From the NCBI RefSeq assembly GCF_022655055.1, contig NZ_CP093384.1, positions 806,001-870,000 of the forward strand: a stretch of DNA of 64,000 nucleotides, in the 5' to 3' direction. This DNA comes from Vagococcus sp. CY52-2 (GTDB lineage Bacteria > Bacillota > Bacilli > Lactobacillales > Vagococcaceae). A program made the position numbers and the translations under genes. How positions within the stretch are numbered: position 1 is the first letter of the stretch; every line of letters starts with the position of its first letter. This document shows positions 46,217 to 62,879 of this stretch, piece by piece. The notes under the pieces were generated by a model. The model was given only the letters and a program-made list of their open reading frames with translations. It did no database searches and was not told the origin of the DNA.

Positions 46217-46230
46217 GGAGTGTGACCCAA

Positions 46231-47625
46231 GTGAGTGAGGTACCACAATTAGAAGAGTATAAATTTGGTTTTCACGACGATGTGCAACCGATCTATACAA
46301 CAGGTGAAGGATTAACAGAAGAGATTGTTCGCGCGATTTCGGCTAAAAAAGAAGAACCAGAATGGATGCTTGAGTTTCGTTTGAAATCACTGGAAGCATT
46401 CCACAAAATGCCAATGCAAACATGGGGACCAGATTTATCTGACATGGACTTTGATAAGATTAACTATTATCAAAAACCAAGTGATAAACCAGCCCGTGAT
46501 TGGGATGATGTGCCAGATAAAATCAAAGAAACTTTTGAACGTATCGGGATTCCAGAAGCAGAACGTAAATATCTAGCTGGAGCAAGTGCGCAGTATGAAT
46601 CAGAAGTGGTGTATCACAACATGAAAGAAGAATTCCAAAAATTGGGAATCGTCTTTACTGATACAGACACCGCATTAAAAGAGTACCCGGATTTATTTAA
46701 ACAATATTTTGCCTCTTTAGTGCCACCAACCGATAATAAATTAGCAGCATTAAACTCAGCAGTATGGTCTGGTGGAACCTTTATCTATGTACCAAAAGGC
46801 GTGCGAGTAGATGTGCCACTACAAACATACTTCCGTATTAACGCTGAAAATACTGGACAGTTTGAGCGTACGTTGATCATTGTTGATGAAGGGGCAAGCG
46901 TGCATTATGTGGAAGGATGTACGGCACCAACTTATTCAAGCAATAGTTTGCATGCGGCGATTGTTGAGATTTTTACCTTAAAAGATGCGTATTGCCGTTA
47001 CACAACCATCCAAAACTGGTCTGACAACGTGTATAACTTAGTAACAAAACGTGCTCGTGCAGATCAAGGAGCAACAGTGGAATGGATTGATGGAAACTTA
47101 GGGGCTAAAACAACAATGAAATACCCTAGTGTTTATCTTGAAGGAGAAGGCGCGCGTGGAACGATGTTATCTGTTGCGTTTGCTGGAGCGAATCAAATTC
47201 AAGATACTGGGGCAAAAATGATTCACAACGCACCAAACACATCAAGCTCAATTGTTTCTAAATCAATCGCTAAAGATGGTGGAGAAGTGAACTATCGTGG
47301 ACAAGTAACTTTCTCTAAACAAAGTGAAGGGTCAATCTCACATATTGAGTGTGACACGATTATTATGGATGAATTATCGAAGAGTGATACGATTCCATTT
47401 AACGAAATCCACAATAGTCACGTGGCATTGGAACATGAAGCCAAAGTATCAAAAATCTCTGAAGAACAACTTTACTACTTGATGAGTCGTGGTTTGTCAG
47501 AAGAAGAAGCGACAGAGATGATTGTCATGGGATTTGTGGAACCATTTACGAAAGAATTGCCAATGGAATATGCCGTTGAATTAAATAGACTGATTTCATA
47601 TGAGATGGAAGGCAGTGTAGGTTAA
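46231..47625 (+). CDS. sufB: Fe-S cluster assembly protein SufB
   Basis: 464 residues, core scaffold protein. P-E-W-M-L-E-F-R near 46-53, E-G-C-T-A-P-T-Y with the conserved cysteine, and the C-terminal [12 protein letters not shown]. Two GTG codons are possible; AAGGAG at 46215-46220 is one base from GTG 46222 but 10 bases from GTG 46231, so the latter is taken. The last codons (M-E-G-S-V-G-stop) recur twice downstream: the insertion target of the accessory region. Confidence 0.95.
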
Positions 47626-47626
47626 T
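47605..47626 (+). repeat. sufB 3'-end repeat, copy 1 (in sufB)
   Basis: Encodes M-E-G-S-V-G-stop. Compared with copies 2 and 3 it starts identically (ATGGAAGG), differs at five bases inside, mostly synonymously, and ends TAAT. Taken as the left junction of the accessory region. Confidence 0.65.
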
Positions 47627-47636
47627 CATAATATTT

Positions 47637-47677
47637 AAGCTAGAAACGTTGATATAATAATGTTTCTAGCTTTTTTA
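47637..47677 (+). terminator. Terminator after sufB
   Basis: Perfect 11-bp stem AAGCTAGAAAC / GTTTCTAGCTT with a 14-base loop, then T residues. Confidence 0.85.
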
Positions 47678-47723
47678 TATTTTATGAAATTTTTATAATG
47701 AGTAGATTGAAATATCTTTAATT

Positions 47724-48305
47724 TTATTTCTTCTCTTCTAGCTTTAAATTTTTTTCATATAAATCCAGTTCTCTATCTTTTTGATCTAACTCTCTATTCT
47801 TCTGATATAATTTTTGAATTTCAATGTTATTTTCTATTTCCTTTTGTTTATTTTCTATAATACTAGTTTGTATATCAACAAAAGGCTGTACGAAGGTTCC
47901 TACTGCACCTAGAGCAGTACATATGGTTAAAATGGTTTTTGAGTATAAATTAATTATCGATTTGTTGACTGGTTTATCAGATAATTTAGATGGTCCTCCA
48001 ATAGGTTTAAGAGTATTAAAGTCATACTCGAATTGTAGTAATAACTCAGCTTGTTCATTTGATAAATCAAGATTTTCAATAAAGTTTTTGTAAGTCATAT
48101 TATTATTTTTCAAATAATTTTGAAGGTTTAAAGCAAACATTGTACTGTTTGAGGCAAGGTTTTTTATAGGAGAATCAGTAAGCATATCTATTGTAAAGCA
48201 AGTTGCATAAAAGGTTTCCACTCTTTGTTGTGGACTTTGATTAGAACAATTTTGTAAAGTATTATCTAAGTCAGTAAACAGTAAATTTAGGTCATTATAA
48301 GTCAT
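47724..48305 (-). CDS. Hypothetical membrane protein with C-terminal coiled coil
   Basis: 193 residues, no family recognised. Residues 1-115 are soluble and helix-rich (L-F-T-D-L-D-N-T-L, N-L-Q-N-Y-L-K-N-N-N); one hydrophobic segment follows (about 118-142, L-T-I-C-T-A-L-G-A-V-G-T-F-V); the end (about 148-193) is a charged coiled coil rich in E, K, L and D-R-E-L-D repeats. Very AT-rich and opposite in direction to the suf operon. First gene past the sufB end, so likely part of the inserted DNA. Confidence 0.6.
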   Translation of the reverse strand: MTYNDLNLLFTDLDNTLQNCSNQSPQQRVETFYATCFTIDMLTDSPIKNLASNSTMFALNLQNYLKNNNMTYKNFIENLDLSNEQAELLLQFEYDFNTLKPIGGPSKLSDKPVNKSIINLYSKTILTICTALGAVGTFVQPFVDIQTSIIENKQKEIENNIEIQKLYQKNRELDQKDRELDLYEKNLKLEEKK

Positions 48306-48394
48306 TATAAAATCAGCCCTTTTAAAATAATATTATCAAAATAGAATGTAACATACAATTAGTTTATTTTGTTAAATTAATTAAAACAATAATA

Positions 48395-48680
48395 ACGAAC
48401 GAAACAGGGTTTAACCATTTAGATACAATGAAAGATAGTCAATGTCGCTATATCTTACAACCCGATGTGACAGCTCCAAGTGGCTATGCGTTGTTTGGTG
48501 CTCCTTTACAAGTGCTTAGTGATAAACTACTAGCAAACACAGGAAAAGCCTTCCCTTTGATTATGGGTGATTTAAAACAAGCGGTATTTGTGGCAAAGAA
48601 GTAACCAAGTCACAACACAGTGGGGAAAATTTGACTTTTACTCACGTGGAGAGGAACGCTATTTAACATACATGCTATAA
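48395..48680 (+). pseudogene. HK97-type phage major capsid protein, 3' fragment
   Basis: Reads T-G-F-N-H-L-D-T-M-K-D, then C-R-Y-I-L-Q-P-D-V-T-A-P-S-G-Y-A-L-F-G-A-P, N-T-G-K-A-F-P-L-I-M-G-D-L-K-Q-A-V-F-V-A-K-K and stops at 48602. The G-D-L-K-x-A and L-Q-P-D-V blocks are those of HK97 capsid C-termini. In the next frame the sequence goes on with V-T-T-Q-W-G-K-F-D-F-Y-S-R-G-E-E-R-Y-L to TAA 48678-48680, so a frameshift near 48600 is likely. The 5' two thirds are absent. Evidence that a prophage or phage satellite once sat here. Confidence 0.7.
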
Positions 48681-48806
48681 ATTATGATTATAGATATAAG
48701 GAATAGACGATTTTAATTGCTAGTGAAATAATGATTAGCGTACTCTCAACGGGGTGTTTTTTTAGAATCATTTAGAAGTATATAGAAGAAAAACCTTGCT
48801 TTTTCA

Positions 48807-48843
48807 TAGTACATGTACTACACTTTAAGTGTATATAGTACAT
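48807..48843. promoter_or_regulatory. Operator-like palindromes before the toxin-antitoxin-like pair
   Basis: AGTACATGTACT (48808-48819), a perfect palindrome, abuts ACACTTTAAGTGT (48820-48832), a second inverted repeat; TAGTACAT occurs at 48807 and again at 48836. Such clustering just before a small first gene suggests autoregulation. Confidence 0.5.
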
Positions 48844-48860
48844 ATAAAGGAGGAATTACT

Positions 48861-49034
48861 ATGGCAACTAAAACGTTTACAAAAGAAATTAGCTTTAGTG
48901 CAAAAACAGCTGAGAAATTCCTAGATGCTATGGATCGTTCACAGAGAGTTGATATTACAAGTAAACATGAGATTAAAAATGCTCATGGTAAAAAAGAAAT
49001 TAATAATTTACTGGCTAAGGCTTTAGGGAAATAG
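48861..49034 (+). CDS. Small antitoxin-like protein (57 aa)
   Basis: Begins at ATG 48861 with an excellent ribosome site (AAAGGAGG, 7-base gap); an in-frame upstream ATG lacks one. The product is small and basic: F-T-K-E-I-S-F-S-A-K-T-A-E-K-F-L-D-A-M-D, then V-D-I-T-S-K-H-E-I-K-N and a lysine-rich helix. A strand followed by helices is compatible with an antitoxin DNA-binding module, but I recognise no named family. Its stop is 10 bases before the GNAT-like gene. Confidence 0.5.
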   Translation: MATKTFTKEISFSAKTAEKFLDAMDRSQRVDITSKHEIKNAHGKKEINNLLAKALGK

Positions 49035-49044
49035 AGGGGATTTT

Positions 49045-49668
49045 TTGGCATTAATTACTGTTAGTTTAAAAGAGCTGTTAGAAAATTCAGAGAGTATGGA
49101 GGATGTTGAAACGCTCCTCCATACTTTTTTTTGTGTAAAAGATTCTGAAACAAACTTTGGGAAAGATGTACAAGATTTTTTACACAAAAAAGCGATAAAT
49201 TTTGAGAATGCTGCAATTTCGAGAACGTTTTTAGTTATTTATAGTGATGAAAAAATTAGTTATTTAGCTGGTTATTTTTCATTAGCGAATAAGCCACTAA
49301 GTATGACAGGTAAAAATTTTGGAAAACTATCTCAATCTAAGAAAAAAATGCTTTTAGGCAGTGGTCATAAGACTGATAAAAATAATTATGTTTGTCCATC
49401 TGTTCTATTAGGACAACTTGGAAAAAATTGTAATTATCCTCAAGATATAGAAGATTCACAGAAAGTTGAGGGTAAAGATATTTTAAAAGCCTCTTATGAA
49501 AAAATAAGAGATATTTATACTTTGTTTGGTGGCAAAGTTTTATATCTTGAATGTGATAATAATGTAAAACTAAGAAATTTTTATAATGGGAATGGATTTA
49601 GTTTATTGGAAGGTTATGAATCTGAAAAAGATATGCTAGTATTTGTTAAAAAATTATCGCAAGTATAA
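49045..49668 (+). CDS. GNAT-like acetyltransferase, possible toxin
   Basis: 207 residues from TTG, after GAGGGGAT. The second half carries the GNAT pattern: F-L-V-I-Y-S-D-E-K-I-S-Y-L-A-G-Y-F-S-L-A strands, L-L-G-Q-L-G-K-N in the acetyl-CoA loop position, Y-E-K-I-R-D-I-Y helix, and L-Y-L-E-C-D-N-N-V-K-L-R-N-F-Y-N-G-N-G-F at the C-terminus. Paired with a tiny upstream gene behind palindromic sites, as in GNAT toxin-antitoxin modules (TacT/AtaT type). The toxin role is inference from arrangement; an ordinary cargo acetyltransferase is possible. Confidence 0.6.
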   Translation: MALITVSLKELLENSESMEDVETLLHTFFCVKDSETNFGKDVQDFLHKKAINFENAAISRTFLVIYSDEKISYLAGYFSLANKPLSMTGKNFGKLSQSKKKMLLGSGHKTDKNNYVCPSVLLGQLGKNCNYPQDIEDSQKVEGKDILKASYEKIRDIYTLFGGKVLYLECDNNVKLRNFYNGNGFSLLEGYESEKDMLVFVKKLSQV

Positions 49669-49809
49669 TTACCCCCAACTAAAAAATACTATCTTTATAC
49701 TATCTATAAGTTTAAATACTTGCTATTAGATAGTATATTCTTATGTTTAAAACTATCTATAAACGTTAATAAGTCAACATTTAGTAATAAAAAAATAACC
49801 GTATCTTAA

Positions 49810-49831
49810 ATGGAAGGGTCTGTGGGGTAAT
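49810..49831 (+). repeat. sufB 3'-end repeat, copy 2
   Basis: ATGGAAGGGTCTGTGGGG followed by TAAT. In frame it spells M-E-G-S-V-G-stop, the SufB C-terminus, though nothing upstream is coding. Identical to copy 3 at 20 of 22 bases. Followed directly by a terminator, as at the real sufB end. Confidence 0.7.
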
Positions 49832-49835
49832 TGAA

Positions 49836-49877
49836 AAAGCTCTAAGCGCTATGAAATAAACGTTTAGAGCTTTTTTT
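49836..49877 (+). terminator. Terminator behind repeat copy 2
   Basis: Stem AAAGCTCTAAGCG / CGTTTAGAGCTTT with one mismatch and a 12-base loop, T run to 49877. Probably the original terminator of sufB before insertion. Confidence 0.8.
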
Positions 49878-50341
49878 GTCTAGTAATATAATGTGGAAAA
49901 TTTAGTTATATAAAATAGGCAATAGTTTTTCAGAGTTTTTTTGAAACTCATTTTAGTAGAATCTTTTCTTTTTTATATAAAAAGTTCATCAGCAAAACTC
50001 TAATACTAATAAGGATGATGTACCTAAAGAAAAATGAATATCAAATTCATATAGCAATAATACTTAAATATATAAAGCAAAAAATTAGGTTTCTTGAAAT
50101 AAGTTTAAGATTGTTTACTGAGTAGATTTAATAGTCTATATTAGGATTAAGAACCGAAAATAATGATATATGAAAATGGAAAAAATAGATAGAAATAGCA
50201 ATTAAAAAGATGGAAAAAGAGTAAAACACCTTGTATGCTTATAATAATAGTTTCTAGTGATATTAAAAATATTGAATAAATATGTTTATAGAAAAAGTAC
50301 ATATTATGGGCTTTATTAATGAAACGAAAGAGGCGAGTTTT
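49878..50341. other. Gene-free AT-rich leader before the helicase gene
   Basis: No supportable gene. A TATAAT box at 50240-50245 could be the promoter of the helicase operon, but no matching -35 hexamer is evident. The rest is very AT-rich without clear repeats. Confidence 0.4.
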
Positions 50342-53300
50342 ATGAGTCAATATCCACAATTTATTGATAATAAGAGAAAGACTTTAGCAGAAACGTTACG
50401 TACAATCGCACCCAATTATAATGTTCTTCGTATAGCTACGGGTTATTGGGATCTATCAGGAACACTGGAACTAATAGATGAAATTAAAGATTATACTAAA
50501 ATTCAATTATTAATTGGACAAGAACCTTTAGCAAACCATCTTCAAAAAAAATTTAATATTTCAATTAATGAAAATGATTTATTTCCAGATAGTTATGTTC
50601 AATCTGATTTAGAGGAGTATGGTACAACTAATCAAATTAATGAATTACGTGAGACAGCACGTAAAATTGTAAGTCTAATTAAAGAAGGCTGTTTAGAAGT
50701 AAAAGTATTTAGGCAACCTAGATTACACGCCAAAGCATACATATTCGGAGAATTAGGCGATGGAAAATCTGTTGGGATAATTGGATCATCTAACTTTACA
50801 AAAGCGGGTCTTACTACTAGTCAGGAACTAAACTTTTTAACCGATGATTATAAAATAGTAGAGTTTGAACCAAAAACGGACAATCAAGAGAACGGTCATA
50901 TCACTTGGTTTGATGAGTTATGGAACGATGATGGGGCGGAGGATTGGACTGGTGATTTTACACAAATAATTAGTAACAGTCCAGTGGGTGATAAAACTTA
51001 TGGTCCATACGACGTATATATAAAGACATTGATGGAAGTTTTTCCAGATGAGCTGATTGATATATCTCCATTCGATACTGATATCGAAAGAGTTTTGCAT
51101 GAATTCCAAAATCAAAATGCACTTAGTCTACGTAGGAAATTAGATACTATGGGCGTTGCTATGCTTTCCGATTCTGTAGGACTAGGTAAAACCATAACAG
51201 CTGCAGCTATAATTAAACAATATATTTATGATGATAAGGTGAATATAGCTATTATTCCACCTGCGTCACTAAAGCAACAATGGGTAGATGAATTAGAAAG
51301 TGATAGATGGAATTTAGTAGAACATAGAGATTTTGAAATATACACTCAGCAGGATAGTAACAAAATTGAAGACTTAATTGAGAAATCAAAAAGTCGTAGA
51401 AATACAAGGGGTGAAATAGATTTATTTGTGATAGACGAAGCTCATAACTTAAGAAATTCAGGCTCTACACGACATCAACAAATATTAGAATTATTTCAGG
51501 AAAATCCAAATGCTAAAGTTTTACTTCTTACGGCAACACCAATAAATAATTCACTTATGGATTTCGCTAATCAAATTCAACTTGGTTCAAAGGGTGATTT
51601 AGTTTCTGTAAATGTTCCTTACGCAACAGGAAACTCCCAATTAGAATACATTGATTTCTTTGAAGCATTAAAAAGAATTCAATCACAGATAAGTAGGGCA
51701 GAAAAAAATGGTGAAAAATTAGATTGGAACATCTATCGAAAATCATTGACTTCTGGTATTAGGCATTATTTAGTTCGTTCTACAAGACAAGGTGTAATAA
51801 AAAGAAATGCAATGAAAAGCAATGTTGAGGGACAAAAACTATTCCCTGATACAAAAGTTGAACAATTTTCATATAGTTACGGGAAAGATAATTCAAAATT
51901 GGTAAAAGCAACGATTGAGGCACAGATTAGCAATGTTTTTGAAGGTCTAGATCCAAGGTTGTTAAATCTAGATTTTGTAAGTGAAATTACACAGAGAACG
52001 ATTCATCCGATTGATTTGTATTCTAATATACATAGACTTCAAGAGGATAATCAGAACGAACAAATATTTGAAGATAATGATATTTCAGAAAATTACTTAG
52101 ATATTAAAATATTAAATAGTAACATGTCGGAAACGGTAATATCGCTTCTTTTTCAATTAATTAATTTTCTAGGATTTACACCCTATAAGCCTGACTCTTA
52201 TCGTAATGAAATATATGGTAAATCTATTCCAGAAGTCCGTTCTATGAGTATCTCTTCTAAAATAAGAACGCAGTTAGCTATTCATAACATGCTGCATGTA
52301 ACTTGGTTAAAACGCTTGGAGTCATCAATGATGGCTTTAAAAAAATCTATTTCCAATTATAAACATAGAATTGAATTTTTCGAAACTTGGTTAGAAAAAG
52401 GCTATATCATAAATTTATCTGATGCATCGTTGTTGGAAAATGAGTATGGGGAAGATATTGATAGAGCCTTTGAGGACTATGAACAATATCTTTCCGAATT
52501 AGAAGAGGCAATGGATGGCGATGATGAGTATATTAAGAAACGTGGTATAGAGCGTAAAGAAGCAGATGAAGATATTTATAATTTGGTGCAACTACGAAAA
52601 GACATAGATCGTGATAAATCAATTATTAATCTATTATTAAGTTTACTAGACTTACTAACACAAGAAGGTTCTGATGAAAAACTAAATGCTTTTGTATCAC
52701 GCCTATGTGAGCAAATCAATGAAGGCAAACATGGTGGAAAAGTGCTAGTTTTTAGTTTCTTTTCTGATACAGTGGATTATTTGAGAGATACATTGCCTCG
52801 ATTATTAGAAAATAGAATACCAGGATTTAACAAGCAATCAGCATTCGTTTCAGGTAATAGTAAAGAAGTAGAAGATATTGCTAAGAGATTCTCTCCTAAT
52901 AGTAAAAAATATCAGTTGAAATCTGATGAAGTAGAGTTGAATTTTTTATTTGCAACAGATGTCTTGTCAGAAGGACAAAATCTTCAAGATGCAGGGATTT
53001 TAGTGAATTATGATTTACATTGGAACCCAGTGAGAATGATACAAAGAAATGGGCGTATTAATCGTTTGGGATCATGTTTTGATGAAGTTCTAATTGCCAA
53101 TGCAACTCCAAGCGATGATTTAGAGACATATTTAAAACTAGTTAAAAGAATTGAACGTAAAATTGATACCATCAATTCAACAGTAGGTAACGATCAAAGT
53201 ATATTAGGTGAAGAAGCGAATCCGATTGAATTTAATGATATGCTTGATTATTATAACGAAAATGAAGTAATAGCTAGTGAAGCAGCTTCTAGATTAGAAA

Positions 53301-54034
53301 ATCAAGGGGATCCCCTTGATTGGACTGATGATTATTCACTAGAATTGAGGTCTTTTTTAGAAGAGCATAAAGAAGATGGAGAGATGGAGAGAATAAAAGC
53401 AATTCCTAAAGGAAAATGGAACTATCTTCCTCAAACTAAAAAAACAATTATTGATCCTTCAGAAGTGATAGGATTATATACAACTAATGGAAAAATCACA
53501 GGAACTGGTGAAAAAATTAAAGATGTAAGTTTTGTAAAAATTGCATTTTCTGGTCAAAGTAGAGGTCCTTTCCAATCCATTAGAACAGAATATATGGAAG
53601 AACAAGAAGCTTTAAGACGAATAAAAACAACGCCTGATGATAATGGTATCAGCATGGATACAATTAAGGTGAATAGGGAAGAATATATATCTAAAGGAAA
53701 AGTAGAAGTAAAAGTGCATTTTGATTCAAATAAAACTGCTTTTGATTTAAAGTCACCTTCTCATATAAAAGCTTTAGAAATTGTAGGGACATACTTTACA
53801 TTGGATGTATTGGGTATAGTTAGAAAAGGTATTCAAAGATCAAATGAGAAGCGTGAATTTGAACAACTTGTAAGAAAGTTAAATAAGGAAGTAAAAGAAT
53901 CAGGTACTCCATATTCTACAACTATTCGAAAATTTGAAGTTTTTATTAAAAAACTTTTAGATAAAGAAAATCAGGAACAAAAAATAGATAAAATTGAAGG
54001 AGTATTATTTTATGCTAACAGCGAAAAGGCTTAG
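50342..54034 (+). CDS. PLD-nuclease/SF2 (SNF2-type) helicase, restriction-like
   Basis: About 1230 residues. N-terminal PLD domain: R-L-H-A-K-A-Y-I-F (H129, K131), then G-I-I-G-S-S-N-F-T-K-A-G-L (148-158). Helicase domain: L-S-D-S-V-G-L-G-K-T-I-T (Walker A about 278-284), V-I-D-E-A-H-N-L (365-368 DEAH), L-L-L-T-A-T-P-I-N-N, and in the second lobe D-V-L-S-E-G-Q-N-L-Q and Q-R-N-G-R-I-N-R-L-G. A charged coiled region separates the lobes. ATG 50342 follows AAAGAGGCGAG; earlier in-frame ATGs have no ribosome site. Overlaps the methyltransferase gene by 23 bases, so the two work together: likely an ATP-driven nuclease that cuts unmethylated DNA. Confidence 0.85.
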   Translation: MSQYPQFIDNKRKTLAETLRTIAPNYNVLRIATGYWDLSGTLELIDEIKDYTKIQLLIGQEPLANHLQKKFNISINENDLFPDSYVQSDLEEYGTTNQINELRETARKIVSLIKEGCLEVKVFRQPRLHAKAYIFGELGDGKSVGIIGSSNFTKAGLTTSQELNFLTDDYKIVEFEPKTDNQENGHITWFDELWNDDGAEDWTGDFTQIISNSPVGDKTYGPYDVYIKTLMEVFPDELIDISPFDTDIERVLHEFQNQNALSLRRKLDTMGVAMLSDSVGLGKTITAAAIIKQYIYDDKVNIAIIPPASLKQQWVDELESDRWNLVEHRDFEIYTQQDSNKIEDLIEKSKSRRNTRGEIDLFVIDEAHNLRNSGSTRHQQILELFQENPNAKVLLLTATPINNSLMDFANQIQLGSKGDLVSVNVPYATGNSQLEYIDFFEALKRIQSQISRAEKNGEKLDWNIYRKSLTSGIRHYLVRSTRQGVIKRNAMKSNVEGQKLFPDTKVEQFSYSYGKDNSKLVKATIEAQISNVFEGLDPRLLNLDFVSEITQRTIHPIDLYSNIHRLQEDNQNEQIFEDNDISENYLDIKILNSNMSETVISLLFQLINFLGFTPYKPDSYRNEIYGKSIPEVRSMSISSKIRTQLAIHNMLHVTWLKRLESSMMALKKSISNYKHRIEFFETWLEKGYIINLSDASLLENEYGEDIDRAFEDYEQYLSELEEAMDGDDEYIKKRGIERKEADEDIYNLVQLRKDIDRDKSIINLLLSLLDLLTQEGSDEKLNAFVSRLCEQINEGKHGGKVLVFSFFSDTVDYLRDTLPRLLENRIPGFNKQSAFVSGNSKEVEDIAKRFSPNSKKYQLKSDEVELNFLFATDVLSEGQNLQDAGILVNYDLHWNPVRMIQRNGRINRLGSCFDEVLIANATPSDDLETYLKLVKRIERKIDTINSTVGNDQSILGEEANPIEFNDMLDYYNENEVIASEAASRLENQGDPLDWTDDYSLELRSFLEEHKEDGEMERIKAIPKGKWNYLPQTKKTIIDPSEVIGLYTTNGKITGTGEKIKDVSFVKIAFSGQSRGPFQSIRTEYMEEQEALRRIKTTPDDNGISMDTIKVNREEYISKGKVEVKVHFDSNKTAFDLKSPSHIKALEIVGTYFTLDVLGIVRKGIQRSNEKREFEQLVRKLNKEVKESGTPYSTTIRKFEVFIKKLLDKENQEQKIDKIEGVLFYANSEKA

Positions 54035-57000
54035 TATCATAGATGATTTGGTTAAAAATCTTTCAAATGAAGATGATAAATGGATGTCCCTTGCAATTGC
54101 AATTGATTTAGCAGATGAAGTATTAAAGGTAATACTTCCTGATAATAATGATTGGGAAAATCAATTAAATAGAGACTCTAGTAATACTGGGAAATTGCCG
54201 GATCCACTCCCTTTAGACACTTTTAAAAATCAAAAACAGGTATCATGGTTTAATATTCATCCTGAATCAACTTCAGCAAGAAGTGCATTTAAACTATTTT
54301 ATTCAGAAGATTGTGCATTGGAGAGTAACTTTTTTTGGTTTAGTGAATCAGCAACTAAGCAAAAAATTGCTGCTGCCACAGAGTATTCACAAAATTGGGA
54401 GGATTCAGACCTTACTCGTAAGCCAGAGTATAAAGTAGGAATAGATTTCTTTTTAACACCAGATACTAATAGTTTGATGGTTGTTATTTCTAATCATCAA
54501 AAATTACGTGTATTAGAATTACATGGACAGTTGAGTAATACGCAAAAATTGATTTTGAAAGATAAACTGAATGGAGCTGCAGCGTATACTGGAATTGAAA
54601 ATGGAGAGCGATTAGAATTCGAACCACAACGTACAATTCATACGACACTTTGGAATGCCTTACAACTTAAAGAAGTAAATAAACAATTTTATGGCTATGT
54701 GGCTAGTCATTACGCAGAAGTTGTAACGTATTTAGAAAAAAATGGGAAAAAATCAGATGATGCAAAACAATTTTCTTCAAGATTATTGGGTAGATTATTA
54801 TTTATTTGGTTTTTAAGGAAAATGAATGTTATTAATGAAAGTGTTGGATACTTTGAAACAGATGATTTAACAGCAACTGAATATTATGATCAAAGACTGA
54901 AACAATTATTTTTTGAAACATTAAATACTGATGTAGAGTCTAGAACTAGCGGCGATTTGCTTACTCCTTATTTAAATGGGGGTCTATTTGAAGCGAAGGA
55001 AAACGACTTTGTCGATGAAACAATAGAATTTCCAGAAGGTTATTTCACACGCTTATATAATCATTTTGATGAATTTAATTTTACAACAGATGAATCTAGT
55101 GCTGATTTTGAATTAATAGCGGTAGATCCTGAAATGTTGGGACAAGTTTTTGAATCATTATTAGCTTCTCAAACAGATAATGAAGATAATAATGAGCGTA
55201 ATAATACAGGTTCGTTTTATACCCCACGTGAAATTGTTGGGTATATGGTTAAAGAAACTCTTAGACAATATTTATATTCTAAGATTGACGAAACAACTCA
55301 TAAAGGAATTGATGAATTATTAGATTTATCTGATTCTCAGTGGTTGAATAGAAAAAGCACATCTAGCGCAGATGTCTGGGGAGTTAATAGCAAGAAAGTT
55401 ATTTCTGAAATTAAAATAGCTCTCGACAATTTCAAAGTACTAGATCCTGCGGCAGGTTCAGGAGCATTTCCTATGGGGATGCTTCAGCAACTACTAAAAA
55501 CTTATGAAAGAATTGAAAAACGCTTTGACCCTTACAAGTTAAAACTATCTATTATTGAAAATAATATTTTTGGTGTTGATATTCAACCTATGGCTGTGGA
55601 AATAGCAAGGCTTCGTGTATGGTTATCAGTAATTGTTGATGAAAAAGATATTTCTAACATTAAGCCATTGCCTAATCTAGATTTTAAATTTATTGCAGCT
55701 AATTCATTAGTTCAGTTAGAAGATGGCCAAACAGATTTATTTGCTGATCCAGAATTAGATATTAAGCTTCAAGATTTAAGAAATAAATACTTTAATGCTA
55801 GATCTCCTAGAAGGAAAAAGGAACATCAAGAAAGATACTATAGATTGACGCTTGGTCAAGGGAATGTTTTCGATGATGAAAGAACTATTCAATTAAAATC
55901 ATTCGACCCGTTTAAGAATAGAACTGCCGCAGAATTTTTTGATCCACATGTAATGTTCGGAATAAGTGACGGATTTGATGCAATTATAGGAAATCCACCG
56001 TATCTTCTAGAAGGAAAAACCAATAAAAAGAAGTTTGAAGGTATTCCGTATTATCAAGGTAAAATGGACTTGTGGTATAGTTTTACTTGTTTAAGTATAG
56101 ATATGCTTAAGGAAAAAGGACATCTTTCTTTTATTGCCAAAAATAATTGGGTAACTAATTCAGGTGCAAGCATATTAAGAAACAAGGTAATAAATGATAC
56201 CAAAATAATTAAATTAATAGATTTTGGTAATTTATTTGTTTTTCAAAGTGCTAAGCAACAAACTATGATTATGATGTTTGAAAAAGATAAATTAACGGAT
56301 AATTATGAATTTGATTACAGAAAATTAAACGGTAGTAATAAAGAATTAACAAATAATGATATTAATAAATTTTTAAACAAAAATAATATAAAAGGTACAT
56401 ACGTTACTCCTCAAATAAAACGAGAAAATTATAAAGATTCTTTTTTTACGTTCAGTAAATATGAAAATATTCTAAACAAAATTAACTCAGATTCAGATTA
56501 TTTGAATAAAACAGAAGTTAATAATGGAATCCATTCGCATTATGATATTATTGACAAGAAATTAGCTAAATTACATAATATGCCAGTTGGAACTGGTATA
56601 TTTGTATTAAGCGATAGTGAATTAGAAAATTTAAATATAAACGATAATGAAGCTTTATTGATAAAGCCATTTTATACATCAAATGAAACAAAAAGATATT
56701 TAACCCAGAGTGCTAATAAATTATGGATAATATATACAGATTCAACATATAAATCTCCTAAATCTATGGATATATATCCAAACTTAAAAAAACATTTAGA
56801 TGTCTTTAAAAATGTAATTACTTCGGACAATAAACCTTATGGATTACATAGAGCTAGAAAAGAATTTCTCTTCAATGGCGAAAAAATATTGGCATTAAGA
56901 AAATGTGTTAATAAACCACTATTTTCATATTCAGACTTTGATTGCTATGTATCAGCTACGTTTAATGTGATTAAGACCAATAGATTTAATAATAAGTATT

Positions 57001-57293
57001 TATTAGCCTTATTAAATTCAAAATTAGTTCAATTTTGGCTTAAGTATAAAGGGAAAATGCAAGGAGATAATTATCAACTTGATCAAGCCCCCCTCATTAA
57101 AATACCAATAAAAGTTAGTAATGAAGAAATAACCAATAAAATTGTTATATTAGTTGACCGCATATTTTATAATATACAAAATAATACTGATACAAAAATA
57201 TTTGAAGAACAAATTGATCAGCTGATTTTTTCTATATATAATTTAGAGCCTTATGAAATAAAAATTATTGAAGATGATTTGAGAATAAAATGA
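54012..57293 (+). CDS. Eco57I-type adenine DNA methyltransferase with specificity domain
   Basis: 1093 residues. Motif I is L-D-P-A-A-G-S-G-A-F (DPAAGSG 478-484), and the catalytic motif IV is I-G-N-P-P-Y (661-664), so N6-adenine methylation. G-S-F-Y-T-P-R-E-I-V and F-G-V-D-I-Q-P-M-A-V-E-I-A-R-L-R are Eco57I/PglX family marks. The C-terminus (about 860-1060; Y-L-L-A-L-L-N-S-K-L-V-Q-F-W, G-D-N-Y-Q-L-D-Q-A-P-L) is a TaqI-type target recognition domain. No nuclease motif is seen in it. AAGGAG at 53997-54002 sets ATG 54012. Protects self DNA and sets specificity for the coupled helicase-nuclease. Confidence 0.88.
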   Translation: MLTAKRLSIIDDLVKNLSNEDDKWMSLAIAIDLADEVLKVILPDNNDWENQLNRDSSNTGKLPDPLPLDTFKNQKQVSWFNIHPESTSARSAFKLFYSEDCALESNFFWFSESATKQKIAAATEYSQNWEDSDLTRKPEYKVGIDFFLTPDTNSLMVVISNHQKLRVLELHGQLSNTQKLILKDKLNGAAAYTGIENGERLEFEPQRTIHTTLWNALQLKEVNKQFYGYVASHYAEVVTYLEKNGKKSDDAKQFSSRLLGRLLFIWFLRKMNVINESVGYFETDDLTATEYYDQRLKQLFFETLNTDVESRTSGDLLTPYLNGGLFEAKENDFVDETIEFPEGYFTRLYNHFDEFNFTTDESSADFELIAVDPEMLGQVFESLLASQTDNEDNNERNNTGSFYTPREIVGYMVKETLRQYLYSKIDETTHKGIDELLDLSDSQWLNRKSTSSADVWGVNSKKVISEIKIALDNFKVLDPAAGSGAFPMGMLQQLLKTYERIEKRFDPYKLKLSIIENNIFGVDIQPMAVEIARLRVWLSVIVDEKDISNIKPLPNLDFKFIAANSLVQLEDGQTDLFADPELDIKLQDLRNKYFNARSPRRKKEHQERYYRLTLGQGNVFDDERTIQLKSFDPFKNRTAAEFFDPHVMFGISDGFDAIIGNPPYLLEGKTNKKKFEGIPYYQGKMDLWYSFTCLSIDMLKEKGHLSFIAKNNWVTNSGASILRNKVINDTKIIKLIDFGNLFVFQSAKQQTMIMMFEKDKLTDNYEFDYRKLNGSNKELTNNDINKFLNKNNIKGTYVTPQIKRENYKDSFFTFSKYENILNKINSDSDYLNKTEVNNGIHSHYDIIDKKLAKLHNMPVGTGIFVLSDSELENLNINDNEALLIKPFYTSNETKRYLTQSANKLWIIYTDSTYKSPKSMDIYPNLKKHLDVFKNVITSDNKPYGLHRARKEFLFNGEKILALRKCVNKPLFSYSDFDCYVSATFNVIKTNRFNNKYLLALLNSKLVQFWLKYKGKMQGDNYQLDQAPLIKIPIKVSNEEITNKIVILVDRIFYNIQNNTDTKIFEEQIDQLIFSIYNLEPYEIKIIEDDLRIK

Positions 57294-57401
57294 TATTTGA
57301 TATTAATATAATGAGTGAATAAATTTTTCAAACAACTTCTCTACCTGCAAAATTGGATTCGTTTTTGGGTACGTTTTGATTACTATCAAGCAATATCATG
57401 T

Positions 57402-57452
57402 AGCAATAGTATCAGTATTTTATAATCAGAAAGTGCTGATACTATTGCTTTT
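57402..57452 (+). terminator. Terminator of the helicase-methyltransferase operon
   Basis: Perfect 14-bp stem AGCAATAGTATCAG / CTGATACTATTGCT around a 20-base loop, then T residues. Confidence 0.85.
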
Positions 57453-57479
57453 ATTAGTTTATTACCTTCCAATTTTTCA

Positions 57480-57501
57480 TTGGAAGGGTCTGTGGGATAA
57501 T
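57480..57501 (+). repeat. sufB 3'-end repeat, copy 3
   Basis: TTGGAAGGGTCTGTGGGA then TAAT. In frame it spells L-E-G-S-V-G-stop. With copy 2 it brackets the helicase-methyltransferase operon exactly. Confidence 0.7.
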
Positions 57502-57507
57502 AAAACT

Positions 57508-57554
57508 AAAGAGTACTAAAATATTGAATTGACAATGTTTTAGGCTCTTTTTTT
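57508..57554 (+). terminator. Terminator behind repeat copy 3
   Basis: Stem AAAGAG...TAAAATATTG paired with CAATGTTTTA...CTCTTT, imperfect, followed by seven T residues. Confidence 0.7.
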
Positions 57555-57741
57555 CCTGTGTAGTATAAGAGTAAATGAGATTATGTATATAATAAATAAT
57601 AATAGAGGGCTTAGCCTCCCTGTTATTACGACTTAATGCTTATTAATCTGATAACCTTTTTTTGCCTCATTTTGATAAATGATCAATAGCATAATTTCCA
57701 GACTCTTGCGAAAACTGTTCGGCGTAATCAGATATAAGTTG

Positions 57742-58243: not shown

Positions 58244-59764
58244 TTGAAAATAGATTCTTTTATAAAGCAATATAGTAATCATCCTGTTCTTTTTATAGGT
58301 GCAGGATTTAGTTTAAGATATCTTGAAAATTCATTTACATGGGAAGAATTATTAAAACATGTTTCTTTAGAATTAACAGGAAATAAAGAGGTGTATTTAG
58401 ATTTTAAATCTGAATCAATCAGAAGTGATGGGTCTTACTCTTATGAAGAAATAGCTGGTAAGTTGGAAAGTCTATTTAATGAAACTTTATCTCAGGATAG
58501 GAATGGTAAATTTAAGGAAATTAATGATATTTTTTATAATAATATGGAAAAAGGTATTAAGCTAAGTCGTTTTAAAATTTATATTGCACAACTTCTAGGT
58601 GGAAAAAATTTAAAAGAGAATACAGAAAACGAAATAGCAGCTCTTAAAAGAGTTCGGAAAAATATCGGTTCGGTCATTACAACAAATTATGATAACCTGG
58701 TAGAGACTTTATTTGATTTTAATCCTTTAATAGGTAATGATATTTTATTAAGTAATCCGTACGGATCCGTTTATAAAATACATGGATGTGTTACTAATCC
58801 AGAAAAGATAATTATTACAGATAATGACTATGAATTATTTGAAGAGAAATATGAACTTATTAGGGCACAACTCTTATCATTATTTATTCATAATCCTATT
58901 ATTTTTATTGGGTATAGTATTGGTGATGAAAATATTAAAAAGCTTCTCAAAACTGTTTTTACATATGTAGAAGCTAACACAGAGATAGCTGAAAAAATTA
59001 AATCTAACTTTTTAGTTGTGGAGTATGAAAAAGATTCAAATAATTTAGAAGTTCATGATCATGATATCGTGCTTGAAGACTTGGTTACCATCAGAATAAA
59101 CAAAATTAAAACTGACAATTTTGAAGACATATACAATTCTTTAGCTTCAATTGAATTACCTGTTTCAGCTATGGATATAAGAAAAGTACAAAATGTTGTT
59201 AAGGAAATTTATGAAGGTGGAAATGTTTTAGTAAATATTGTCGATGACCTAAATGATTTGAAAAATAACGAAAAAGTTCTAGCAATTGGTAATGTTAATA
59301 GAATTAGTTATGATTATCAATCTATAGGAGAATTGATTGCTAATTACTTTAAAATTGTTGAGGAAGATAATTTTCAAATTTTAAAAGTAATTGATAAACA
59401 AAATATAAATAAAGGCCAGTTTTTCCCTATTTTTGCCTTTTCTGAAATTAATACTGATATTGAAAAAGCTGGCGAGTTAAAAGTACAGCAGGAAAAAAAA
59501 TTAAAAGAGATATATAGAAAATTAAAAAATAATCAGGAGAACTCTCATACAAGGATAGATGATATAATTAAGGATGATTGCATATCAAATTCTAATAAAG
59601 ATAATGCAATAATGTATGCAGTTTTTAATAAACAAATAGGATTAAAAGAATTTGAAGAACATTTATATACTAGGTCTAATAAAAAAGAAACTAGTTATAG
59701 AAGGTTGCTCTGTGTTTTTGATTTTATGAAATATTCAGGAGAATTAGAGAAGATAGAGTCTTAA
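58244..59764 (+). CDS. SIR2-domain protein, likely defence effector
   Basis: 506 residues from TTG, after GGGAGG. SIR2-type NAD-binding fold: F-I-G-A-G-F-S (GAGFS 19-23), V-I-T-T-N-Y-D-N-L-V-E (TTNYDN 146-151), K-I-H-G-C (H180), and F-I-G-Y-S-I-G-D-E-N at 221-230. The C-terminal half (from about 300) is unrecognised and probably senses the trigger. SIR2-domain proteins of this kind act in phage defence (Thoeris, DSR, SIR2-HerA) by degrading NAD+. The neighbouring restriction genes support that; it remains inference. Followed 31 bases later by a partner gene. Confidence 0.75.
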   Translation: MKIDSFIKQYSNHPVLFIGAGFSLRYLENSFTWEELLKHVSLELTGNKEVYLDFKSESIRSDGSYSYEEIAGKLESLFNETLSQDRNGKFKEINDIFYNNMEKGIKLSRFKIYIAQLLGGKNLKENTENEIAALKRVRKNIGSVITTNYDNLVETLFDFNPLIGNDILLSNPYGSVYKIHGCVTNPEKIIITDNDYELFEEKYELIRAQLLSLFIHNPIIFIGYSIGDENIKKLLKTVFTYVEANTEIAEKIKSNFLVVEYEKDSNNLEVHDHDIVLEDLVTIRINKIKTDNFEDIYNSLASIELPVSAMDIRKVQNVVKEIYEGGNVLVNIVDDLNDLKNNEKVLAIGNVNRISYDYQSIGELIANYFKIVEEDNFQILKVIDKQNINKGQFFPIFAFSEINTDIEKAGELKVQQEKKLKEIYRKLKNNQENSHTRIDDIIKDDCISNSNKDNAIMYAVFNKQIGLKEFEEHLYTRSNKKETSYRRLLCVFDFMKYSGELEKIES

Positions 59765-59795
59765 TTTAATATATGTCAAAGTGGTGATTATTTTA

Positions 59796-60401
59796 ATGAT
59801 AGATAGAGAAAAAAGAGTAAATGAAGGATTGGAAGCGAGAAAAAAATTTAATAGTCTAGAAGTGGACTATAAATTGGAAACTGAAAGAATATATAGAATA
59901 GTACAAAATCATCCAAATAAATTTGTTACTTCCAAAAGTATCTTTGTCATAACGTTAGGTTCAAATAAAGATTTTAAGCTAAAATATAAACAATATTTTA
60001 AATCGTTGTCAAAAAATGACTTAGAATCATATTATTATGTTTGGATAGGTCTATCAGAAGGAAATGTGGTAGTTGTAGGAAGAACATCTTTTTCAAAAAA
60101 TGCAAGATCAAGTTTTGGAGATTTATTCAATGAATATAATATATTTGGTGGTATCACTCAAGAAATTATTATGAGAATAATAATTTCTGAGAAAAAAGGA
60201 ATTGATGTAAATAAGATAAATCAATTAAACAATGATTTAAACGATTTTTTTACTCATGCAATAATAGTTCCTGTAGACGTTGGACAATGTAATAAAAAAG
60301 AAGCAGATTTAATTTGCAGTACTGTAGAACAGCAACTAGGAGATGGATTAATTAAGAATGAGATAGAGATACTTAATACTTACTCTCATAAGTTTTACTA
60401 G
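59796..60401 (+). CDS. Hypothetical protein next to SIR2 gene (201 aa)
   Basis: Starts at ATG 59796 (an in-frame GTG at 59781 is possible). No named family recognised. Notable is the central stretch S-Y-Y-Y-V-W-I-G-L-S-E-G-N-V-V-V-V-G-R-T-S-F with K-N-A-R-S-S-F-G-D-L after it, which faintly recalls a GIY-YIG core, and D-F-F-T-H-A-I-I-V-P-V-D-V-G-Q-C-N-K-K-E-A. Same direction and close behind the SIR2 gene, so most likely its operon partner (second effector, inhibitor or sensor). Confidence is in the gene, not the function. Confidence 0.6.
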   Translation: MIDREKRVNEGLEARKKFNSLEVDYKLETERIYRIVQNHPNKFVTSKSIFVITLGSNKDFKLKYKQYFKSLSKNDLESYYYVWIGLSEGNVVVVGRTSFSKNARSSFGDLFNEYNIFGGITQEIIMRIIISEKKGIDVNKINQLNNDLNDFFTHAIIVPVDVGQCNKKEADLICSTVEQQLGDGLIKNEIEILNTYSHKFY

Positions 60402-60659: not shown

Positions 60660-61061
60660 TTGGATAGAAGTTTGGAAGAAATGTATGGATTATTAGTCTA
60701 TTTAAATAAACCTTATGAATCAATATCAAGTTTAATCATTACCAAAAAATTAGATAGTTCTATGAATAATCTAAATATAGCTTCTATAAATGTTAGAAGA
60801 ATTCAGATAAGATACTCACCATTTTTTATAGTAAATATTAAAGATGAATTATTAGAGATTAGTGTTAGTGTTGATAAGACTTCTAAAAAATTAATAGAGG
60901 AGATTATGATGAATGAAAAATCAATTGAAAGAATTGATATAGTTGAATGTCAAAAGAGTATTTTGAAAAGTATCAACATCTTAAGAGACTGTCATGAAAG
61001 AATTAGTACTGAAGTGAAAAGCTATTTGAACAATCTTAAGGTTAAAGAGATAAGTTGGTAA
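60660..61061 (+). CDS. Hypothetical protein, probably 5'-truncated
   Basis: From TTG 60660 the product is 133 residues: L-E-E-M-Y-G-L-L-V-Y-L-N-K-P-Y-E-S, R-I-Q-I-R-Y-S-P-F-F-I-V-N-I-K and a helical end. The frame is open upstream to about 60611 (Y-E-K-E-F-E-I-Y-L-E-L-F-E-S-L-A-N), in protein-like sequence with no start codon. So it looks like the C-terminal part of a longer protein joined to the Mod fragment by rearrangement. No family recognised; no ribosome site before the TTG. Confidence 0.4.
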   Translation: MDRSLEEMYGLLVYLNKPYESISSLIITKKLDSSMNNLNIASINVRRIQIRYSPFFIVNIKDELLEISVSVDKTSKKLIEEIMMNEKSIERIDIVECQKSILKSINILRDCHERISTEVKSYLNNLKVKEISW

Positions 61062-61373: not shown

Positions 61374-62744
61374 TTAATAAGAATGGTTATCTTGTATTGA
61401 ATCCCTCGACTGCATATATTCCTCTGCTTCAGGATATCTCGTGAAATCAATTGTTAAAGTTTCGTATTCTTTTAATTTTTGCTCAATTAAATCAATAGAG
61501 CATCTAAAAAATTCTTTTCGATTATTTACTTTATTAATACGATAATCATGGAAATAGTCATGAAGTTCGGCTTCAAGTTTGAAGGCATCATAACTAAATA
61601 TAAGGGCATGAACATCAAATTTGAAAGGGACTGATGCACTACTTAATTCGTTGATTCGCTCTAGTGGCTCCAATCGTCTAGTTACCCCAATTTTAAAGAC
61701 ATCTTCACCAAAAGCTCCGATGTTACTAATAATATAAACGTAACCAGCATAAGCATGTGCATTTCTATAATCTAACTCATTTTTTTCTTCTTCTTTGTTT
61801 TCAATTTGTTTCTGTAATTCAGCAATTTGTTGTTTTAAAGCGTCAATTTCTGCTTGATCATCGTTCTTTTTCATTTTTGATTCTAAATCTGAAATCATAT
61901 TATTGTAGTGGGTTAAGTCTTTATCTATTATCTTCATTTTTGCGTTAATCTCTTTTTGTAACGCTTTTTCTTCACGTTCTTTTTCACGCTGTAGTTTTAA
62001 TTCTTCTTTTTCTTCTTGTTTCTTTCGTTCGTATTCATATGCTAGATACATTTCTTGTTTTTTGATTTCTAGATAGGCTGGTGATATAGACAATTGGTTA
62101 TTTTCATTCATTTTATTAAGCTGTTGGTAGGACGTTTCCATTCTTTTTTTAGAAGCATCTAAGTTGTTGTATTTTACTTTCATAATGATGGTTTCACACT
62201 CATTATTGAACGAACGCAGAATTTGTTTAATATTGTTATTCGTCATTTTTTTACCTTCAGCAGCACTTCCATTAACTGTCCATCCATCAAAAAAATTGAC
62301 AGCAGTCTTATCTTTAATCATTTGTTTTTGTGTTGCTCGAACTTCAGTTAGTTTGTCTTTATACAAAAGTGATGAAGCAAAATTATATTGTGGTTCATAC
62401 AATCCCCAATTTTGCGCGTCAATTGTATTATTCAACGTATTTAATTCGTTCTTTTTGTCCATAATTTCAGCACCCAACTGCAATAATTTATTATTTAATT
62501 CTACTTCGGTGCGTTTTACTTTTAATACCGCGTCATCAAGTTTGTTCACTTCAATGGTTAAATCTTCAATCATCGTTTGCTTTTCTATAATCGACATAGA
62601 TTCAATGGAAAGTTGTTTCTTTTTGATGCGACTTAATTCTTCTGAACGATTATCTAATCTCTTTTGCATTTTTTTATTTTCATCTATTAATCGTTCGTTT
62701 TCTTGTTTTATTTTTTTGATTTTAAAAATATCTAAAATAGCGAT
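61374..62744 (-). CDS. DUF4041 / GIY-YIG-like (T5orf172) protein, probable ATC start
   Basis: About 456 residues. Long charged coiled coil (about 10-110), DUF4041-like middle (N-W-G-L-Y-E-P-Q-Y-N-F, R-S-F-N-N-E-C), a second coiled coil (E/K/Q-rich), and a C-terminal T5orf172 GIY-YIG domain: A-G-Y-V-Y-I-I-S-N, V-F-K-I-G-V-T-R-R, E-A-E-L-H-D-Y-F, N-R-K-E-F-F. The first ATG (62669) has no ribosome site. AGGAGGAG lies 6 bases before ATC 62744, which gives the family-like N-terminus x-A-I-L-D-I-F-K-I-K-K. Phage- and defence-associated; nuclease role likely, unproven. Confidence 0.7.
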   Translation of the reverse strand: MAILDIFKIKKIKQENERLIDENKKMQKRLDNRSEELSRIKKKQLSIESMSIIEKQTMIEDLTIEVNKLDDAVLKVKRTEVELNNKLLQLGAEIMDKKNELNTLNNTIDAQNWGLYEPQYNFASSLLYKDKLTEVRATQKQMIKDKTAVNFFDGWTVNGSAAEGKKMTNNNIKQILRSFNNECETIIMKVKYNNLDASKKRMETSYQQLNKMNENNQLSISPAYLEIKKQEMYLAYEYERKKQEEKEELKLQREKEREEKALQKEINAKMKIIDKDLTHYNNMISDLESKMKKNDDQAEIDALKQQIAELQKQIENKEEEKNELDYRNAHAYAGYVYIISNIGAFGEDVFKIGVTRRLEPLERINELSSASVPFKFDVHALIFSYDAFKLEAELHDYFHDYRINKVNNRKEFFRCSIDLIEQKLKEYETLTIDFTRYPEAEEYMQSRDSIQDNHSY

Positions 62745-62879
62745 AGTTAACTCCTCCTATATTACTAAAGATATGATTGTATGATTATATCACATCAAGT
62801 AGGAGGGAAATGACTATAGCTAGAAAATTATCAAAAATAAAAAACATTAGACATGTTTTCACATCTCTAACGTTTTTTT

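Follow-up and report, generated by a model that had tools for sequence, protein, structure and literature searches.

Three probably decayed, integrase-less elements stacked at the 3' end of sufB in Vagococcus sp. CY52-2

Why should the last codons of sufB occur three times in one genome, twice at places where no sufB-like gene ends? The question is raised by a stretch of 64,000 nucleotides from Vagococcus sp. CY52-2 (GCF_022655055.1, contig NZ_CP093384.1, positions 806,001 to 870,000 of the forward strand; the whole stretch is called the window here), in which the sufB tail at 47605 is followed by orphan copies at 49810 and 57480, arranged head to tail and in one direction. A first reading of the letters alone, called the original prediction below, had taken the copies as marks of an integration hotspot with two stacked insertions, each element bringing its own sufB tail and being either decayed or moved in trans. 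The hotspot, the stacking, the tail carried by each element and the loss of the integrase are all supported by our analysis. The number of insertions has to be raised to three, the stretch from 57501 to about 62823 having been left out, and it is very likely that the block consists of elements of three integrase types, stacked at sufB and by now decayed and immobile.

The sufB tail, its copies and the borders of the block

The 3' end of sufB reads ATGGAAGGCAGTGTAGGTTAA, and direct comparison bore out the three copies: over 22 bases, copies 2 and 3 agree at 20 positions, five bases set copy 1 apart from copy 2 and six from copy 3, and all three encode E-G-S-V-G-stop. Using the 21-nt orphan form with up to three mismatches, we obtained two matches in the window, compared with none in 100 shuffles, and the whole genome of 2.1 Mb gave these two only. 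The degenerate core TGGAAGGNNSNGTNGGNTAR retrieved exactly the three copies from this genome, so that a scattering of the repeat away from sufB, named beforehand as an outcome that would refute the prediction, was not seen. Of the family's 27 genomes, 26 carry the core pattern, as do 132 of 198 across the order, the order-wide figures resting on the matches listed; read backwards, the pattern gave 0 matches in every family and order genome listed. In some other genomes (G079, G148, G150 and G001, for example) cores lie on both strands or on separate contigs. Each copy in the window is followed, as predicted, by a hairpin and a T run (-18.1, -19.1 and -16.9 kcal/mol; z -6.8, -5.4 and -5.8), and a stricter terminator scan lists the first of the three only. 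Considering that 43 of the 45 loci with sufB (three overlapping duplicates included) keep EGSVG-stop at the end of the gene, and that the other two have VGSVG-stop, the changes in the sufB tail are silent.

The right border of the block was obtained from two genomes in which the SufB protein is 100% identical, G005, of the same genus, and G008. The G005 locus (L038) has a single core, about 36 nt beyond which its DNA matches the window from 62824 onwards with 95% identity; it is the empty site that had been proposed as a check, with one core joining the right flank. G008 (L041) has the same right flank as the window, behind a different unit of 6 kb with a reverse-transcriptase gene. Since both genomes set the right border, the inserted block extends from 47627 to about 62823, and because the island-free G005 places that border well beyond core 3, a third element is present there; a reading with two elements is thereby ruled out. 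The sequence GGCTCTACGTCAAATGATGAGG, which we take to resemble insertion-sequence ends, is common to G005 (L038 1537-1573) and G008 (L041 about 8925-8960, both loci turned) at this border.

Repeats, integrase types and the three elements

For comparison, 60 stretches from relatives were divided into segments, each running from core to core (at most one mismatch) within one fetched stretch, and the segments were classed by a profile of six core-adjacent integrases. Six loci were dropped for want of sufB, for overlap or for want of a second core (L033, L040, L048, L049, L051 and L153). The remaining segments number 31, the window's two included, and 26 were counted after five segments of one family, f7, had been kept out. 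A full tyrosine integrase is carried by 11 of them (7.6-17.3 kb), integrase fragments by four (3.5-7.1 kb) and no integrase by 11 (0.9-12.0 kb); in 11/11 full segments the integrase gene is close to the left core and runs against the direction of sufB. Intact elements ending in the repeat, which the prediction had suggested looking for, therefore exist in relatives. Longer intervals are uncounted and at least seven of them start with a full integrase (L145, L148, L150, L166, L168, L170 and L171), so the integrase-less share of 11/26 is an overestimate.

Integrase-bearing elements display two tandem repeats of 6-10 bases, the first some 72 nt after the left core and the second some 125 nt short of the right one. 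Both ends of an element have one motif, and this motif differs between elements. In a matrix of 18 full-length integrases whose repeat is legible, two integrases of one motif share 75-99% identity (10 pairs, mean 89) against 25-82% for two of different motifs (143 pairs, mean 47); the values of 80-82% come from GAATGCC compared with AAATGCC, which are nearly one motif. None of 2000 label shuffles joined motif and integrase clade as well. Three of the nine types in this matrix have a single member, and other profile matches (L035, L135, L145, L171, L172 and L174, for example) are left out of it. At least nine integrase types use the one core of 20 bp, the most distant type having 25-33% identity. 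Because the motif tracks the integrase clade, the paired repeats look like putative arm sites of the integrases, a term used by analogy with other tyrosine integrases. By that key, elements 1, 2 and 3 of the window would come from three integrase types (CTATCT, TTGGCTACG and AAATGCC, respectively), the integrases of these types having 53-57% identity to one another.

Elements 1 and 2 keep right arm-type repeats, and the left ones are lost or broken in all three elements. The same asymmetry is observed across the counted segments: the left repeat is found in 11/11 segments with a full integrase versus 2/11 without one (Fisher 2.2e-4, a value that is too good because the segments are related), one of these two being low-complexity sequence, and the right repeat in 10/11 versus 7/11 (p 0.31). 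In the four segments with integrase fragments, two have the left repeat and four the right.

Element 1 appears to be the rest of a satellite-like element with its own capsid gene. The capsid remnant of the original prediction is real: in a translated search its two frames gave 68% and 78% amino-acid identity to the capsid of a satellite-like, CTATCT-type element of 14.0 kb in G022 (L052). This element has att sites on both sides and genes for an integrase, a repressor, a primase, the small and large terminase subunits, a portal, a capsid/protease and the connectors Ad1 and Hc1, and none of its 17 open reading frames (ORFs) of at least 60 residues matched a tail family. It has the gene order known for capsid-forming phage-inducible chromosomal islands (cf-PICIs), and the best phage-collection matches of its capsid are records of 14.5 and 14.1 kb. 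At the right end of element 1, positions 49669-49728 share 83% identity with the corresponding end of a CTATCT-type element in G025 (L146) that carries an integrase. At the left end, positions 47606-47676 are 94% identical to DNA following a distal core in G019, and the match stops where G019 continues into a CTATCT-type repeat. A toxin-antitoxin pair, also thought possible in this element, proved unsupported; all that was found there is an acetyltransferase gene (phrog_1758) behind that of a 73-residue phrog_6339 protein.

In the case of element 2, the right repeat reads TTGGATTCGTTTTTGGGTACG, and positions 57328-57375 match right ends in G072, G154, G184 and G079; in G072, G154 and G184 the spacing to the core also agrees to within a base. 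The restriction-like operon expected between copies 2 and 3 was found to consist of a helicase gene and a type IIG gene. For element 3, core 3 together with the left end (97 bases) shows 84-87% identity to the DNA leading from the core to AAATGCC-type integrases in G001, G002 and G006, a similarity that breaks off within the first left arm repeat. The coordinates of all features are collected in Table 1.

Table 1. Features of the sufB locus, with positions counted from the first base of the window; element types and gene functions are predictions.
Feature	Position	Strand	Basis or remark
sufB	46222..47625	+	ORF; last codons and stop form att copy 1
att core 1, present sufB end	47606..47625	+	TGGAAGGCAGTGTAGGTTAA
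Element 1, integrase-less remnant, right end of CTATCT type	47627..49810	+	between cores 1 and 2
Terminator after core 1	47637..47672	+	hairpin, terminator scan
193-aa ORF	47724..48305	-	no family match in Pfam, PADLOC, PHROGs, NCBIfam
Phage-type capsid C-terminal remnant, two frames	48350..48650	+	kin of the G022 (L052) capsid gene
73-aa ORF, phrog_6339, a phage family of unknown function	48813..49034	+	PHROGs
Acetyltransferase ORF, phrog_1758	49045..49668	+	PHROGs
Right arm-type repeat, CTATCT type	49686..49705	+	125 nt before core 2
att core 2	49811..49830	+	pattern search
Element 2, integrase-less, two-gene restriction-like operon, right end of TTGGCTACG type	49831..57480	+	
PLD + SNF2 helicase	50282..54034	+	PADLOC HKD+Snf2, C3a139
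Type IIG restriction-methyltransferase-like protein	53994..57293	+	Pfam, PADLOC
Right arm-type repeat, TTGGCTACG type, 3 mismatches	57353..57373	+	128 nt before core 3
att core 3	57481..57500	+	57481-57504 identical to the sufB tail of island-free G005
Element 3	57501..~62823	+	right boundary from G005 and G008
Element 3 left end	57501..57577	+	match ends inside first left arm repeat (TAAATG)
SIR2-domain defence candidate, PDC-S25	58244..59764	+	Pfam, PADLOC
206-aa ORF	59781..60401	+	no family match (Pfam, PADLOC, PHROGs, NCBIfam)
133-aa ORF	60660..61061	+	no family match (Pfam, PADLOC, PHROGs, NCBIfam)
PD-Lambda-1-like defence protein, DUF4041 and T5orf172 domains	61374..62669	-	Pfam, PADLOC
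Right flank: AMP-binding, acyl-CoA-ligase-like gene	62824..64000	-	adjoins sufB in G005; beyond the island in G008

The block was reported at first to contain no visible integrase, and the searches bear this out: none was found by Pfam in ten ORFs of the block or by the integrase profile in 13 ORFs, and a translated search of the block with the ORFs of 16 loci returned the capsid fragment and one weak match (E 0.005). No transfer gene occurs among the block ORFs scanned. With one CTATCT-type integrase as query, the best match in the bacterium's own genome has 31% identity, compared with the 53-57% found among the three types assigned to the window, and a Pfam search of that genome gave six integrase matches, none near sufB among the four listed.

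Two further sets of relatives deserve mention. G017 (L047 1100-11993) is a close parallel to the window, with three cores in 11 kb and two integrase-less units, the second of which carries IetS- and TmtA-like genes. The distal cores of three loci from different genomes (L033 3233, L041 8237 and L165 8975, sufB on the plus strand) are preceded by the common stretch ATGACA.TGGTTGAGA.GCCG.TTCC.ATA and have a TTGACCA repeat; the units of L041 and L165, which are seen whole, gave no integrase match.

Formation of the block and competing explanations

The following course of events would account for these observations. The last 20 bases of sufB would serve as the attachment core for a set of tyrosine integrases, and an incoming element would recombine in or beside the shared stretch TGGAAGG, the presumed place of crossover. 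With each insertion sufB would acquire a different but synonymous tail together with a fresh terminator, and the older insertions would be shifted to the right. Core 3 looks like an old sufB end, because positions 57481-57504 equal the sufB tail of G005, and if it is one, each newcomer would enter next to sufB, ahead of the older insertions; no fewer than three elements, representing three integrase types, would have arrived, probably in the order 3, 2, 1. Each of them would then have lost its integrase, and lost or broken its left repeats, through deletions at the left end, leaving the cores, the right arms of elements 1 and 2 and the cargo, so that likely anti-phage genes became fixed beside sufB.

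Several observations weigh against this account. The putative arm sites are known from the repeats and their covariation with the integrases, and equally good repeats occur in 6-8% of random stretches; the segments used for the repeat counts are related, the two from the window being among them. At its left end, element 1 also shows 90% identity to a left end of TGACCAG type in G118 (L170), and because this end fits two types, the type of the element is fixed by its right end and the capsid fragment only. For the left flank of element 2, a search for the parent returned terminator-like similarity only. The half repeat of element 3 is short (AAGAGTAAATG is found twice in the window), and border comparison with relatives gave no recognisable right core for this element. 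In G005, the first bases after the core resemble an AAATGCC-type left end and about 36 nt are unmatched, so that this genome may represent a site emptied by deletion and not the original one; the right border of the block holds even in that case.

The operon of element 2 has its own history. Positions 50314-56317 are 92.4% identical over 6 kb to DNA of Enterococcus sp. 8G7_MSG3316 (L055 6318-12318), where, as a further point against the account given above, the operon sits between transposase genes and no core was found around it (2.3 kb of the record reads N). Since it is flanked by transposase genes in that strain, the operon can travel by other routes, and the likeness between the two strains probably reflects a fairly recent transfer by one of them. 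When 295 genomes of the order were searched with the type IIG protein, relatives at E up to 1e-60 came from its own genome only. No core with up to two mismatches was found in 80 type IIG loci, of which L055 was examined in detail. Relatives of this protein (L056-L134) reach very distant phyla, archaea included. The SIR2 protein of element 3 likewise had relatives (E up to 1e-40) in its own genome only, among the same 295.

Decay and movement in trans had been left side by side by the original prediction, and decay is favoured because it is the left repeats that are gone or damaged, the right ones having been kept. Loss of the integrase end with retention of the cargo end is what would be expected from deletion of mobility genes, and units moved in trans should keep both arms. 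We therefore retain as an alternative only, and consider unlikely, that the integrase-less units are living cassettes, moved in trans or in cis by an element of matching type and forming an exchangeable defence array. Their cores and right repeats are indeed fairly well kept (7/11 integrase-less segments), such units are frequent, even if the share given above is too high, and the first units of L136 and L165 and the second unit of L161 have unlike repeats at their two ends, which suggests that pieces of different elements do get joined. Set against this, the left repeats are gone or broken in 9/11 integrase-less units, the window's two among them, no matching integrase was found in the bacterium's own genome, and the block had no near match in 72,556 plasmid and 50,697 phage records (searched by megablast only).

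That the orphan copies arose by duplication of the sufB 3' end, through homologous recombination of incoming DNA, is far less probable still. Duplication of this kind does occur in family f7, whose distal cores are accompanied by 570, 78, 564, 589 and 348 bp of sufB and whose units have paired repeats in 0/5 cases on either side. The copies in the window share a mere 20-26 bp or so, and the DNA before cores 2 and 3 matches the right ends of elements elsewhere at the same distance from the core, which contradicts duplication here. The f7 cases (L156, L157, L158 and L159; positions 4616, 2313, 4899, 5248 and 10568 with sufB turned to plus) have duplicated sufB ends of 89-99% identity, and the short units in front of these show neither an integrase match nor paired repeats. 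They point to homologous integration, several times over, as another mechanism acting on sufB; duplications of 78-589 bp rule them out as further cases of the window's mechanism. Finally, it is hardly credible that no insertion took place and that the copies reflect chance or a conserved motif associated with terminators: the shuffles and the reversed pattern gave 0 matches, the island-free genome contradicts such a reading and no supporting point was found.

A wider proposal can be made, tentatively and with a rather small chance of being right: sufB may act as a shared dock at which each type of element has a private arm key, so that unlike elements stack without mutual excision. Later elements might then collect integrase-less units in which core and right arm are intact, and an order-wide, slowly shuffled array of defence cassettes would result.

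Defence cargo and comparison with known systems

Ten proteins encoded downstream of sufB in relatives match Gabija (two), Thoeris, AbiH, Old, IetS, TmtA, PDC-S06, a type III restriction enzyme and a defence-type reverse transcriptase; they were chosen by eye and show variety, not frequency. The sufB site thus appears to hold varied predicted defence genes, and mobile defence genes may become fixed in the manner proposed here, the integrase end being lost and the cargo end kept. The arm-repeat key would allow an integrase type to be proposed for a unit from bare DNA, even after loss of the integrase, and would indicate which incoming phage or satellite might move it.

As an integration hotspot, sufB was predicted correctly and is already in print as a prophage site. 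The Latilactobacillus sakei prophages TMW 1.1290 P1 and TMW 1.46 P2 are described with attL and attR equal to the sufB core (PMC9641780), Sa1int prophages of Staphylococcus aureus are mostly placed at the sufB 3' end (PMC11217367), site 5 of Lactococcus lies between llmg_1968 and sufB (PMC3757294), and passages of two further papers concern the sufB site (PMC11769447, PMC8297860). The integrase of TMW 1.46 P2 shares 42% and 48% identity with two of the sufB integrases found in this analysis. As far as these accounts go, the target is the same, and the prophages carry their integrase whereas the window holds three integrase-less remnants with likely defence cargo. No paper pairing sufB with a phage-inducible chromosomal island, or with a satellite and Lacticaseibacillus, was found in the literature searched; compared with the print found, phage satellites and defence cargo are new for this site.

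Islands beside sufB are also described in another lactic acid bacterium, Enterococcus cecorum, where they lie between dnaX and sufB, and the passage concerned describes neither cores nor arms (PMC10117131). The defence hotspots of P2- and P4-like elements in Escherichia coli, as presented in PMC9122126, likewise hold variable anti-phage cargo in satellites; those hotspots lie inside the elements, and the cargo of the window lies in stacked remnants at a chromosomal att site. The cf-PICIs are reported to measure about 14 kb and to have their own capsids, with lactobacilli and enterococci among the hosts (PMC10803314). On that description the G022 element, judged by its genes, is alike in size and layout: it has the integrase, repressor and primase, att sites on both sides at about 14 kb, its own capsid and packaging genes and no tail family in 17/17 ORFs. 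Element 1 of the window keeps a capsid fragment only and has neither the integrase nor the packaging genes of that class.

The closest likeness is to cis-mobilizable elements (CIMEs), described as having lost their integration genes, kept their att sites and stacked at a gene end; in the same account, such tandems also include prophages and satellite prophages and are generally decayed (PMC5704250). Elements 1 and 2 have att sites on both sides, as CIMEs do, element 3 being without a recognisable right core, and integration and transfer genes are missing from the block ORFs scanned. CIMEs are there derived from conjugative or mobilizable elements (PMC5704250), and element 1 appears to derive from a capsid-bearing one; its capsid fragment speaks against conjugative or mobilizable descent, and elements 2 and 3 are known by arm type only. 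The block may thus be said to work like a row of CIMEs; we do not class it among them, since what is left of element 1 suggests descent from a phage satellite and any mobilisation is putative. With its units between cores, an island-free relative and missing mobility genes, the block fits the published picture of tandems that form at a gene's end and are generally decayed.

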